This document shows, piece by piece, positions 32,452 to 38,307 of a stretch of DNA of 64,000 nucleotides. A program made the translations under genes and the position numbers. A model generated the notes under the pieces. That model made no database searches, had not been told where the DNA came from, and saw nothing but the letters and a program-made list of their open reading frames with translations. Within the stretch, counting starts at the first letter, position 1. Every line of letters begins with the position of its first letter. Source of the stretch: Synechococcus sp. AG-673-F03 (GTDB taxonomy: Bacteria > Cyanobacteriota > Cyanobacteriia > PCC-6307 > Cyanobiaceae); NCBI GenBank assembly GCA_003211205.1, contig QCTJ01000001.1:62001-126000 (forward strand). Direction: 5' to 3'.

Positions 32452-33393
32452 GTGCCCCCGCAACCAAGCCCAACTTCTCTGTCATGGTCTGAACGGCCGG
32501 GGGATCTTCCCAGAGACCTTGCGGACCGCAGAGCCCTCGATAGCCTGTTGGCTGAGCAGTTTCCGGAAGCTGGCGGAAGGCTCAGTACACTGCGGGGAGG
32601 TCGAGACGCCGCGGAGACAACACTCAGTCTGATCGATCCCCGGCGTTACACCAAAAGCCGCAATCACCTCAAAGGCGCGGTGACTGGCTTATCCCCCTAC
32701 ATCCGCCACGGTGTGCTCAGCCTGGCGGAAGTGCGTAACGCCGTGTTCCAGCGCATTCGCAGCCGCGACGAGGGCAGCAAGTTGATCAACGAGCTGGGCT
32801 GGCGCGACTTCTGGCAGCGAATGTGGCGCGACCTCGGCGATGGCATCCACGACAGCCAGGAAGAGCTGAAAACCGGTCATGATCCCGCCTCCTATGCCAG
32901 GGAGCTCCCTGAGGACATCCGCGCAGGACGAACAGGCCTGGCCTGCATGGATGGATTTCAAAGCGAACTCACCACCCGTGGCTGGCTGCACAATCACGCC
33001 CGCATGTGGATGGCGGCTTACGTGGTGCATTGGCGCAAAGTGCACTGGAAGGCCGGCGCAGACTGGTTTCTGGAGCATCTTCTCGATGGAGACCCCTCCA
33101 GCAACCACCTGAGTTGGCAGTGGGTCGCCAGCAGCTTCAGCCACAAGCCCTACTTTTTCAACAAAGGCAATCTGGAACGGTTCAGCGATGGCCAGTTCTG
33201 CAGAAGTTGTTCCAGCAGTGAGCGCTGTCCATTCGAGGGCAGTTACGAACAGCTGGAAAGTCAGCTGTTCGCCAGCCAGGGCTCCATTCGTGATGTTCCG
33301 AACCGACGCAGCCGCAACCACCAGCAACGCTCAGGCCGACAGCAGGAGCTGAAGGGAAGCGGCCAAGCGGCCATGGCCCGACCCAAGCGATAA
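32452..33393 (+). CDS. Stand-alone photolyase/cryptochrome FAD-binding domain
   Basis: A 313-residue protein that contains only the helical FAD domain of the photolyase/cryptochrome family. It has RNHLKGAVTGLSPYIRHGVL near residue 70, ELGWRDFWQRMWRDL near residue 114, RGWLHNHARMWMAAYVV near residue 174 and NHLSWQWVASSFSHKPYFFN near residue 217. The N-terminal antenna domain is absent. A C-terminal CRSCSSSERC cluster may bind metal. The missing alpha/beta domain is encoded by the next gene, three bases downstream. The start is GTG at 32452. Light sensing or DNA repair as a two-piece protein is inferred. Confidence 0.87.
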   Translation: MPPQPSPTSLSWSERPGDLPRDLADRRALDSLLAEQFPEAGGRLSTLRGGRDAAETTLSLIDPRRYTKSRNHLKGAVTGLSPYIRHGVLSLAEVRNAVFQRIRSRDEGSKLINELGWRDFWQRMWRDLGDGIHDSQEELKTGHDPASYARELPEDIRAGRTGLACMDGFQSELTTRGWLHNHARMWMAAYVVHWRKVHWKAGADWFLEHLLDGDPSSNHLSWQWVASSFSHKPYFFNKGNLERFSDGQFCRSCSSSERCPFEGSYEQLESQLFASQGSIRDVPNRRSRNHQQRSGRQQELKGSGQAAMARPKR

Positions 33394-33396
33394 GCC

Positions 33397-33825
33397 ATGT
33401 CTCTTCAACGACCTGTCATCTGGGTGCACGAGGAAGCACTCGGTTCCAGCAACCCAGCACTACTTGAACGGCCGAACAGCCCAGCCCTCTTCGTTTTTGA
33501 TACCCACTGGATCCAGGAAGCCCATATCAGCCGCAAGCGGCTTGGCTTTCTGTACGAAAGCGCCCTGGATCTACCCATCACCCTGCGTAAGGGTGATGTG
33601 GTCAAGGAAGTGATCGCCTTCGCCGAGCGTCACAACGCCGATGGAGTCTTGAGCAGCCTGCCCGTCGACCCCCGCTTAGAACGCATCGCCGTCTCGATCG
33701 AATCGCACTGTCCGCTGGAACTGCTGGAACCGGAACCGTTCGTGACCATGCCGCGACCCCCGCGGCTTGGACGCTTCAGTCGCTATTGGCGAGAAGCTGA
33801 ACCGGTGGTCTGGGAAGGCTTCTGA
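33397..33825 (+). CDS. Stand-alone photolyase N-terminal alpha/beta (antenna-like) domain
   Basis: A 142-residue protein that follows the pattern of the photolyase N-terminal Rossmann domain. The strand VIWVHEEALGSSNPALLE comes first, then ALFVFDTHW near residue 30, SRKRLGFLYESALDLPITLR near residue 45 and RKGDVVKEVIAFAERHNADG. SLPVDPRLERIA follows where photolyases have a strand with DxEP-like residues, and the end resembles the linker before the FAD domain. It begins three bases after the FAD-domain gene, so the two domains are encoded in reverse order. The last 43 bases overlap the convergent lipoprotein gene. Confidence 0.75.
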   Translation: MSLQRPVIWVHEEALGSSNPALLERPNSPALFVFDTHWIQEAHISRKRLGFLYESALDLPITLRKGDVVKEVIAFAERHNADGVLSSLPVDPRLERIAVSIESHCPLELLEPEPFVTMPRPPRLGRFSRYWREAEPVVWEGF

Positions 33826-34340
33826 CTGTCACCCAGCAGGTCGTCCTCAAGCCGCTTTTCTTCGGCGAAATCCCTCAGTAAATCCCGCCGCTCATAAGCC
33901 GGGAACTGCACTGGTATGAGCTCTGAAGCATCCGTGGGCGGGGGCGTCCACTGCCAACGGGCCTCGGGTGCACGCTGCTGGCAGAGAGCCTTCAACTCTG
34001 CTTGCAACGCGCGGCGCACATCGCTGCGACGCACAGCAGCGAAGAATTCCTCACGCGGCGCTAGCCCTGCACTGAAGGGCGCTGTGCCATTGCCGTTGAA
34101 CAGACGCGCAGCATCGGGGAACCAGCGAGGCGAGCACTCCGCAGGATAGTCCGTGTCGGTTTCCAGAAAGAAATGGAGACCGAAGCCGTCGGGCTGACTC
34201 ACAACCGCAAGGCCGTCATGGGGCATCCGCCGCGGCAGCGGAAACACTTTCCAACTGGTGCGCTGCGGTCCCGAACAGGCCGTCAGCAGCAGAACAAGGG
34301 TGATGCCTGAAATCCCACCTGCCTGGGCACGCCTGAGCAC
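33783..34340 (-). CDS. Predicted lipoprotein
   Basis: About 185 residues with a lipoprotein signal, SGITLVLLLTACSGPQ, whose lipobox LTAC places the acylated cysteine near residue 24. The mature part is rich in Arg, Pro and acidic residues. It contains PLPRRMPHDGLAVV and FFLETDTDYPAECSPRWFPD, and I do not recognise a domain. GTG at 34340 is chosen because it sits just upstream of the signal; longer in-frame extensions lack protein-like composition. It overlaps the antenna-domain gene by 43 bases tail to tail. Confidence 0.65.
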   Translation of the reverse strand: MLRRAQAGGISGITLVLLLTACSGPQRTSWKVFPLPRRMPHDGLAVVSQPDGFGLHFFLETDTDYPAECSPRWFPDAARLFNGNGTAPFSAGLAPREEFFAAVRRSDVRRALQAELKALCQQRAPEARWQWTPPPTDASELIPVQFPAYERRDLLRDFAEEKRLEDDLLGDSQKPSQTTGSASRQ

Positions 34341-34412
34341 GCGTTCTCTGCACCGGAGGGCCGGAGTCTGAACCAGGATGAAAGCTGACGCATCATTTGT
34401 TGCTCGTTCGCC

Positions 34413-35030
34413 ATGGCTCTCACTACCTCGACAATGCTGCCCCTCGGCGAGGCGCTGCCTGCCTTCCAGTTGCCCGTGGTGAGCGGAAGCTTGAGGGAGG
34501 GCACTGCCGCAGCAACTCTCAGCAACAGCGAGCTGCCCGCACAGCCGCTGCTGCTGATGCTGATCTGCGCACACTGTCCGTTTGTGAAGCATGTGGAGCC
34601 CGAGCTGAGCAGGCTCGCCGCGCAGTACGGCTCACCCGTAACCCTGCTGGCTGTCTCCAGCAACAGCCTCACCACCCATCCACAGGATGGTCCTGAAGGC
34701 CTGCGTCAGCAGGCAGAACAACAGCAGTGGCGTTTTCCCTATCTGCTCGATGAGCAGCAGAACCTGGCCAAAGCCCTTAAGGGTGCCTGCACGCCGGAGT
34801 TTTATCTGTTCAGCCCCGATGATGCGGGCCTTCAGATCCTGCGCTATCGCGGCCAGCTCGACGGCAGCCGCCCAGGAAACGAGGTTCGATTGGATGGCCA
34901 CGATGTGCGCAGGGCACTGGATGCGGTCCTGAGTGGCCAGCCTGTCAACCAAGACCAGCAACCATCCGTTGGCTGCAACATCAAGTGGCATCCCGGACAA
35001 GAGCCACCGTGGTTCGGGGCATCGGCTTAA
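34413..35030 (+). CDS. Thioredoxin-fold redoxin (AhpC/TSA-like)
   Basis: A 205-residue protein with the resolving motif CAHCPFVKHVEPEL near residue 51. This is the CxxCPF form common in peroxiredoxin-like thioredoxin-family proteins of bacteria and cyanobacteria. FPYLLDEQQNLAKAL near residue 109 and TPEFYLFSPD near residue 128 complete the fold. A late SVGCNIKWHPGQEPPWF tail is typical of this subgroup. It is probably a cytoplasmic thiol oxidoreductase or peroxidase; the substrate is unknown. The aminotransferase gene starts 11 bases downstream. Confidence 0.88.
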   Translation: MALTTSTMLPLGEALPAFQLPVVSGSLREGTAAATLSNSELPAQPLLLMLICAHCPFVKHVEPELSRLAAQYGSPVTLLAVSSNSLTTHPQDGPEGLRQQAEQQQWRFPYLLDEQQNLAKALKGACTPEFYLFSPDDAGLQILRYRGQLDGSRPGNEVRLDGHDVRRALDAVLSGQPVNQDQQPSVGCNIKWHPGQEPPWFGASA

Positions 35031-36254: not shown

Positions 36255-37733
36255 TCAGGAGCGGATCGTGGCGTACAACGCTTTGAAGTGGGCCTGCTGT
36301 TGCTTGTGATCGATCAGAAGCTCGGGATATCCACGTCGCTCCAGTGCACCAATCTCACCACTGAGTAGATCCTCGGTGTTCACATGGCGCAGCTCCGGCA
36401 ACCAGTGACGGATGTAGTCAGCTTCGGCGTCGAACTTTGATGCCTGCGTCGCCGGATTGAAAATTCGCAAGGGCTTGGGATCCATCCCACTGCTGGCACT
36501 CCACTGCCAGCCACCGTTGTTGGCCGCAAGATCGCCATCCACCTCCAGCTCCATGAAGGCCCGCTCGCCCCAGCGCCAGTCGCAGATCAGGTCTTTAACC
36601 AGGAAAGAAGCGACGATCATGCGACAGCGGTTGTGCATCCAACCGCTCTGGTTGAGCTGACGCATCGCTGCGTCGATGATCGGCATCCCGGTTTGGCCCT
36701 CTCTCCAGAAGCCAAACCACTCTGTGTTGTTCTCCCAGGGGAAGCGTCGCCACTGCTCGCGGTAGGGACCATCCGCCAATTCGGGGAAATGGAACAACGC
36801 CTGTTGGTAAAACTCACGCCAGCCCAGCTCCTGCTCCCACACCGTGATCGCATGCTGCTGTTCATCACTGCGCACGATCTCTTTGGCGCTCTGGGCAGCA
36901 CACCAGGCCTGTCTTGGACTGACCGTGCCAACACTCAGAGCCGCACTCAACGATGAGGTCCCCTGCTGCCCAGGGAAATTACGGTCAGGCTCATAGCCAA
37001 AAAGGGGGCCGTCAGCGAACGCCGCCAACTGGTCCGCTGCCGCGGTTTCTCCATGGCGGCAAGGACACAAGTCGGTGCCGGTGAAGCCATGGCTGCTGCG
37101 CAGACGCTCCAGCTCGGACTGTCCCTGGGAGCAGAGCCGACCAAGATCGCCTTCTGCAGAGCTGATCTGCTGAAGCTGGGACTGGGTCAGATCCTGTAGG
37201 CCTTCTGGAGCTGCTGTGGTGCGTGGGGCGAGCCGTTCGACCTGACCGCGCCAGTTGCGCAGAAACGGTCCATACACGCGGTAAGGGTCACCTCCGCCGG
37301 TCTTGAGTGACTCCGGCGCCACCAGCAACTGGTCCCAGTCGACCAACAGCTTGCGCCCATCGGTCTGCAGGGCTTTGGCCACCTGGCGGTCGCGCTCGCG
37401 GGCATAGGGCTCCACATCGCGACTCCAAACCACAGTGGGCACGTCCAGAAGGGCCGCCAGCTGCGGCAACAGCACAACAGGGTCACCGGCCAGCACCAGC
37501 AGGCGACTCCCGGCCTGACGCCAGCGCTGTTGCAGTTCAACCAAGCTCTCCACCAGAAACCACAAGCGGGCCGGTGCCATCGGCGGCAGCTGGGGTGGCG
37601 GCGTAATCAGAGCCGGATCAAGCACATAAACACCGGTCACAGCCGGGCCTAGAGCTACAGCTGCCTGAAGACCTGAATTATCCGCCAAACGCAGATCGCG
37701 GCGGTGCCAGAACAGCGTGCGAGGGGTACTCAT
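36255..37733 (-). CDS. phr: Deoxyribodipyrimidine photolyase
   Basis: A full 492-residue class I photolyase that repairs cyclobutane pyrimidine dimers using blue light. The N-terminal domain starts LFWHRRDLRLADNSGLQAAV. The FAD domain contains GTSSLSAALSVGTVSPRQ near residue 276, ELGWREFYQQALFHFPEL near residue 314, SGWMHNRCRMIVASFLVKDL near residue 365 and NNGGWQWSASSGMDPKPLRIF near residue 404. It lies 2.4 kb from the two-piece photolyase-like pair on the opposite strand. The Nudix gene is 13 bases upstream. Confidence 0.95.
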   Translation of the reverse strand: MSTPRTLFWHRRDLRLADNSGLQAAVALGPAVTGVYVLDPALITPPPQLPPMAPARLWFLVESLVELQQRWRQAGSRLLVLAGDPVVLLPQLAALLDVPTVVWSRDVEPYARERDRQVAKALQTDGRKLLVDWDQLLVAPESLKTGGGDPYRVYGPFLRNWRGQVERLAPRTTAAPEGLQDLTQSQLQQISSAEGDLGRLCSQGQSELERLRSSHGFTGTDLCPCRHGETAAADQLAAFADGPLFGYEPDRNFPGQQGTSSLSAALSVGTVSPRQAWCAAQSAKEIVRSDEQQHAITVWEQELGWREFYQQALFHFPELADGPYREQWRRFPWENNTEWFGFWREGQTGMPIIDAAMRQLNQSGWMHNRCRMIVASFLVKDLICDWRWGERAFMELEVDGDLAANNGGWQWSASSGMDPKPLRIFNPATQASKFDAEADYIRHWLPELRHVNTEDLLSGEIGALERRGYPELLIDHKQQQAHFKALYATIRS

Positions 37734-37746
37734 CGTTATCGCGAAT

Positions 37747-38307
37747 TCAGAAACCGAGCAACTGCTTGGCCCGATACCAAGCGGTCACGCTTTTGCCATC
37801 GAGCCACTCCTCGCCGGAACTCAGGCGAGCATCCAGTTCGGCAGGACTCATCTGCAGAACCTCGAGATCTTCATCGTCATCTCCTACCGGGGGGTTCTCC
37901 AGCGCTGTGAGATCCCTGGCCAGGAAGCAGTGAATCACCTCATCGGAATAGCCAGGGCAGGGCAGCATGGGACCAAGGGCATCCCAGCGAGCGGCGCTAT
38001 AGCCCGCTTCCTCTCCGAGCTCCCGCATCATCGACTCCAAAGGATCTTCTCCGTCCTCAAGCGTGCCTGCCGGGAACTCCAGAAGCCTGGCCTGAACAGC
38101 AAAGCGGTACTGACGCAGCACCACCACCTGCCCCTCATCGGTGATTGGCACGGCCAGGGATGCACCCGGATGCCGAATGATCCCGAAGCTGCCCTCCACA
38201 CCCATGGGCAACCGGATGCGGTTGCGCTCGAAGCGCACTTTGCGCGCATCCAGGGCATCGATGGTCTCCAGCAGCTCATAGGGCTCTGGAGCCGGCAGCG
38301 GAGCCAT
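37747..38307 (-). CDS. Nudix hydrolase, ADP-ribose pyrophosphatase-like
   Basis: A 186-residue protein whose Nudix box is complete: GTLEDGEDPLESMMRELGEE near residue 91, matching G-x5-E-x7-R-E-x2-E-E. The layout, with FERNRIRLPMGVEG before it and a long C-terminal segment, fits ADP-ribose/sugar-nucleotide pyrophosphatases. It lies directly upstream of the photolyase gene on the same strand, and the two may be cotranscribed. Confidence 0.9.
   Translation of the reverse strand: MAPLPAPEPYELLETIDALDARKVRFERNRIRLPMGVEGSFGIIRHPGASLAVPITDEGQVVVLRQYRFAVQARLLEFPAGTLEDGEDPLESMMRELGEEAGYSAARWDALGPMLPCPGYSDEVIHCFLARDLTALENPPVGDDDEDLEVLQMSPAELDARLSSGEEWLDGKSVTAWYRAKQLLGF

Follow-up and report, generated by a model that had tools for sequence, protein, structure and literature searches.

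A photolyase of Synechococcus sp. AG-673-F03 encoded by two genes in reversed domain order, probably a two-subunit enzyme

Gene content of the locus

We analyzed a stretch of 64,000 nt from Synechococcus sp. AG-673-F03 (GCA_003211205.1, contig QCTJ01000001.1, positions 62,001 to 126,000, forward strand), referred to here as the window. It contains two consecutive genes, the first encoding a stand-alone FAD-binding helical domain of the photolyase type and the second a stand-alone alpha/beta domain (Table 1). Haney et al. (2022, PMC9426592) have already described this pair from marine Synechococcus as phr4 and phr5. The window adds one member to the published pair, and the reversal of the domain order itself has also been published. 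As in the strains of Haney et al., the FAD-only gene is followed by the alpha/beta gene, the same cysteines are present, and the pair lies several genes from phr3. In the window, phr4 and phr5 are spaced by three bases (gcc) and are in the same frame.

The phr3 gene is located 2.43 kb from the pair and encodes an ordinary photolyase, which matched TIGR03556 (E 4.7e-188, under the strict cutoff of that model) as well as PF00875 and PF03441. A preliminary description of this DNA, made from the sequence, had already placed a normal photolyase 2.4 kb away. Directly upstream of phr3, a minus-strand open reading frame (ORF) at 37747-38307 carries a nudix-like motif, GTLEDGEDPLESMMRELGEEAGY, an arrangement resembling the nudix-photolyase operon reported for Prochlorococcus MED4 (PMC2955971). 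The 3' end of phr5 overlaps tail to tail by 43 nt (33783-33825) with a lipoprotein-like ORF on the minus strand (33783-34592).

Table 1. Features of the phr4/phr5 locus and of related fusions (positions in the window unless a locus is named)
Feature	Position	Strand	Details
phr4, stand-alone photolyase FAD-binding helical domain	32452..33393	+	313 aa, GTG start, TAA stop
FAD_binding_7 match within phr4	32785..33156	+	profile 2-127 of 203
CPD-type active site and electron path: E114, W117, Y148, N181, M185, W199, N218, W222, W224	32791..33123	+	1dnp alignment
Four cysteines, C165, C250, C253, C259, candidate [4Fe-4S] ligands	32944..33228	+	invariant in 18 homologues
Basic low-confidence C-terminal tail of Phr4, ends AMARPKR	33280..33393	+	pLDDT, terminus comparison
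Junction TAA-GCC-ATG, in-frame stop and restart	33391..33399	+	spacing and frame relation differ between genomes
phr5, stand-alone alpha/beta domain, DNA_photolyase type	33397..33825	+	142 aa, ATG start
LGRFSRYW motif of Phr5, conserved	33766..33789	+	alignments
phr3, ordinary 8-HDF-type photolyase, context only	36255..37733	-	TIGR03556, PF00875, PF03441
Deinococcus plasmid fusions	L142:3396-4766, L143:3459-4877, L145:3357-4730		record annotation just "FAD-binding domain-containing protein"

Domain content of Phr4 and Phr5

Phr4 matched FAD_binding_7 (PF03441) over residues 112-235 with an E value of 7.6e-23. The Pfam search found no alpha/beta domain in Phr4, and its PDB relatives were the photolyases 1tez and 1owl (E 1.4e-17). 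The protein ends in a strongly basic tail, of which residues 277-312 have pLDDT values below 50 and are predicted to be disordered. In 19 of 30 genomes the terminus reads ARPKR or ARPQR, and the tail might be a motif for binding DNA or a partner.

Phr5 alone had no Pfam or NCBIfam match and no significant PDB sequence match. PF00875 (DNA_photolyase) was matched by 38 of 40 relatives of Phr5 (best E 3.6e-5), and a profile of the relatives aligned in hhalign with the N terminus of the window's ordinary photolyase (P0003) with an E value of 9.6e-6 and 26% identity. In the AlphaFold model, Phr5 adopts an alpha/beta fold of five strands, with a pLDDT of 93.2. Photolyases ranked first when this model was searched with Foldseek (2j07, E 2.4e-5) and were also on top in VIA (Z 12.2 to 3zxs and 4dja, 12.1 to 1iqr), so that, judged from the model, the closest solved relatives of Phr5 are photolyase N-terminal domains. 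The conserved LGRFSRYW motif aligns on VYGPFLRNW, located where the alpha/beta domain ends in the ordinary photolyase. The dN/dS ratio of phr5 was 0.07-0.13, corresponding to purifying selection and indicating that phr5 is a maintained gene. No phr5 homologue was found in phages at an E value of 0.01.

The preliminary description had proposed that a photolyase is divided here over two genes in swapped domain order, an FAD-binding helical domain alone and then, three bases on, an alpha/beta domain of the photolyase N-terminal type. The domain content, the predicted fold and the structure matches all agree with this proposal. It would have been contradicted by a 142-residue protein lacking a Rossmann-like fold; the predicted fold is Rossmann-like.

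Predicted lesion specificity of Phr4

In class I photolyases, E274, W277, N341, M345 and W384 (Escherichia coli numbering) contact the cyclobutane pyrimidine dimer (CPD). When Phr4 was aligned with E. coli photolyase (1dnp), E114, W117, N181, M185 and W199 corresponded to E274, W277, N341, M345 and W359, and N218, W222 and W224 to N378, W382 and W384. Phr4 therefore also keeps the flavin-contacting N378 and the electron path residues W359 and W382. Y148 falls at the W306 position in a gapped region where the alignment is uncertain, and this tyrosine is invariant among the homologues. The active-site and electron path residues were invariant in 18 diverse homologues, except for E114 and M185, which were at least 90% conserved. 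In (6-4) photolyases, as established for the Drosophila enzyme, histidine is present at the positions of N341 and M345. These histidines are absent from Phr4, which has Asn181 and Met185 there. The CPD-type residues of the lesion site thus favor CPD repair, and from the sequence we predict with moderate confidence that Phr4/Phr5 repairs CPDs.

This prediction differs from that of Haney et al., who assigned (6-4) activity on the basis of the Fe-S cysteines and a contrast between UV-B and UV-C (PMC9426592). The four cysteines are indeed invariant in the 18 homologues, Haney et al. name the same set in Phr4 of strain RS9916, and Phr4 very probably carries a [4Fe-4S] cluster. FeS-BCP enzymes known to contain a cluster of this type act on (6-4) lesions, and the loss of phr4 in RS9916 was harmful after UV-C but not after UV-B (PMC9426592). 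However, the lesion site of Phr4 is CPD-like, with Glu, Asn and Met at E. coli positions 274, 341 and 345, whereas inspection of this genome's PhrB-type protein shows Ile at 274 and His at 341. Moreover, NewPHL/SPL proteins are presented in the introduction of a 2026 paper as enzymes that act on CPDs and have an inverted domain topology (PMC13274461). The cysteines of Phr4 make a cluster likely but leave the type of lesion undecided, and we consider a (6-4) photolyase unlikely. The assignment of Haney et al. thereby becomes a testable disagreement.

The preliminary description had named a light sensor and a repair enzyme as alternatives. A two-piece blue-light sensor (cryptochrome) would come from the same fold family, and in Phr4 the flavin-contacting Asn is retained, as is the Trp path for the most part. 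This function is nevertheless quite improbable, as the residues that contact the lesion are retained too and the phr4 mutant of RS9916 has a UV phenotype, with survival after UV-C 20 to 30 times lower (PMC9426592). The repair half of the description is thus supported by the CPD-type residues and this phenotype, and the sensor half fits less well.

Co-occurrence, linkage, and natural fusions

We compared 292 cyanobacterial genomes, of which 58 encode phr5 and 59 encode phr4. Every one of the 58 phr5 genomes contains phr4 as well, and phr4 is absent from 233 of the 234 genomes without phr5 (Fisher p 6e-61, with phylogeny ignored). In the 59th phr4 genome (G083) the match is a distant FAD protein whose C-terminal part differs. 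The two genes are adjacent in 34 of the 58 genomes, one of which (G313) has a fusion, and are 0.3-2 kb apart in another 6. In the remaining 18 they are found apart, either on the same contig at distances of 0.48-4.9 Mb (10 genomes) or on different contigs (8 genomes).

Fusions in which the FAD domain is followed by the alpha/beta domain were found at nine cyanobacterial loci, in addition to G313; freshwater Synechococcus/Cyanobium are among the carriers. A natural single-gene fusion, phr6, had been reported from two Cyanobium strains (Haney et al. 2022, PMC9426592). Three Deinococcus plasmids carry full fusions of the Phr6 kind in the same order, with the C-terminal three cysteines kept. The shared order of the fusions in cyanobacteria, G313 and Deinococcus indicates that the two parts act together, and with the 58/58 co-occurrence it is strongly supported that Phr4 and Phr5 work together.

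A tree of Phr4, made with a quick method and with a root that is not confident, implied about 5 switches in linkage (linked or unlinked) and about 4 in fusion state (fused or split); at least 3 and at least 2 of these, respectively, are required by branches with good support. One genome has, beside a complete pair, a second and apparently truncated phr4-phr5 copy (G327:C1:293241-293914). A contig labeled as a Blastopirellula MAG (L082) carries a picocyanobacterial phr4/phr5 pair, probably through bin contamination.

A fused chain or separate chains

Haney et al. reported that in all strains seven G-C pairs lie between the ORFs and the reading frame shifts, the RS9916 junction being a 7-bp G/C stretch, and suggested a programmed frameshift giving one chain, without settling the matter (PMC9426592). 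The junction in the window is in frame and has a spacer of 3 nt. In each of 30 related genomes phr4 and phr5 were two ORFs, with frame relations of 0, 1 and 2 in 14, 4 and 12 genomes, respectively, and a spacing from overlap (TGATGG) to about 30 nt. At 60 loci of named records, a set that partly overlaps the 30 genomes, relations of 2, 0 and 1 were found at 34, 15 and 11 loci. A constant 7-bp G/C frameshift junction was thus not found, and we treat the seven-G-C junction "in all strains" as over-general rather than a defining feature.

The occurrence of all three frame relations among the 30 genomes makes a conserved frameshift very unlikely. A single fused Phr4-Phr5 chain made by frameshifting or stop readthrough would match the order of the natural fusions, and the phr4 stop of the window lies in frame with phr5 and RS9916 has the 7-bp G/C junction. 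However, the frame relation varies even between close relatives, the genes are apart in 18 genomes, and a seven-base all-G/C spacer was present in just 1 of the 30 junctions (L011). We therefore give a fused chain very little chance, and as a conserved mechanism we reject programmed frameshifting or readthrough on account of the variation in frame relation and linkage. The genome comparison sharpens the question posed by Haney et al., and the simplest reading is that Phr4 and Phr5 are separate chains that are always retained together.

The least credible alternative makes Phr5 a chance downstream neighbor, a small nucleotide-binding protein of the universal-stress type without kinship to photolyases. 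The weak Usp matches in 6 of its 40 relatives and the universal stress proteins among its fold matches are outweighed by the PF00875 matches and the first rank of photolyases in Foldseek and VIA, on which we reject this candidate, as well as by the constant co-occurrence and the fusions with phr4.

A probable two-subunit photolyase

We conclude that the pair probably encodes a two-subunit DNA photolyase composed of Phr4 and Phr5. In such an enzyme, Phr4 would carry FAD, very probably the [4Fe-4S] cluster, and the lesion-binding site, and Phr5, translated on its own from the following start codon, would supply the alpha/beta domain. We infer that Phr5 would bind non-covalently to Phr4 and, once bound, could accommodate an antenna cofactor as well as completing the fold. 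Each chain would be translated independently or, at loci with touching genes, through reinitiation, with no frameshifting involved. The active site predicts CPD repair by this enzyme, and kinship with the NewPHL proteins makes a preference for single-stranded DNA possible.

An AlphaFold model of the linked proteins, in which the in-frame TAA was read as Gln, gave a pLDDT of 84.6 and placed the disordered tail (residues 277-312) between two well-folded domains. Its pTM of 0.85 is consistent with a defined Phr4-Phr5 interface, but it is soft evidence and not proof, as it comes without an inter-domain error, the structure aligners are blind to permutation, and AlphaFold knows photolyases. Foldseek and VIA, which ignore permuted arrangements, matched the linked model mainly on the FAD domain. 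The phr4/phr5 region raises the UV-C survival of E. coli, which speaks for the enzyme. Against it, the protection was not significantly different in the light and in the dark (PMC9426592), unlike that expected of a simple photolyase.

The pair has both domains and the catalytic residues in common with class I CPD photolyases (E. coli Phr, the Anacystis nidulans enzyme and phr3). In contrast to the pair, these are single chains, with the alpha/beta domain first and no Fe-S cysteines. The short photolyases, SPL (Xu et al. 2021), as summarized in PMC9649867, PMC9178010 and PMC13274461, have an FAD domain without the N-terminal alpha/beta domain, as does Phr4, and an Fe-S cluster is expected in them, for which Phr4 has the ligand cysteines. 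In the cyanobacteria examined here, by contrast, the alpha/beta domain is not missing and is supplied by a separate gene or a C-terminal fusion. NewPHL/Phr7 proteins (Emmerich et al. 2020), according to PMC9426592 and PMC13274461, resemble the pair in having the FAD domain first and a short atypical second domain. However, they are described there as a single chain with a C-terminal Z-domain and without the Fe-S cysteines, whereas the window encodes two chains and Phr4 has these cysteines.

The FAD-domain protein of G083 (L150:919-2271) has an atypical C terminus, MRSFSQFWEVA, reminiscent of LGRFSRYWREA in Phr5. The match of Phr5 to the C-terminal part of this protein was weak (hhalign E 1.3e-3, probability 18). 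With these weak statistics, the G083 protein, a candidate of the NewPHL kind, may link the second domain of NewPHL to Phr5.

If the two-subunit reading is true, the "short" photolyases of cyanobacteria are not short but obtain their second domain from another gene, which bears on the proposal that short photolyases resemble the ancestor of the family. We rate the chances as about even that the cyanobacterial "short" photolyases are obligate two-subunit enzymes in general, with a free antenna-type alpha/beta subunit often encoded far away. If so, synthesis or exchange of the light-harvesting part could be uncoupled from the catalytic part.

Distribution of the pair

Conservation in all marine Synechococcus and Prochlorococcus had been suggested as a check in the preliminary description. 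This was borne out for the window's own genus, in which all near-complete genomes searched have phr4/phr5 and the two genomes without the pair are 58% and 63% complete. It did not extend to the other genera of the family with small genomes, as the pair was found in none of the 1.6-1.9 Mb genomes searched. We take these to be Prochlorococcus, in agreement with Haney et al. (PMC9426592). Many Nostocales and members of a few other groups carry the pair as well.
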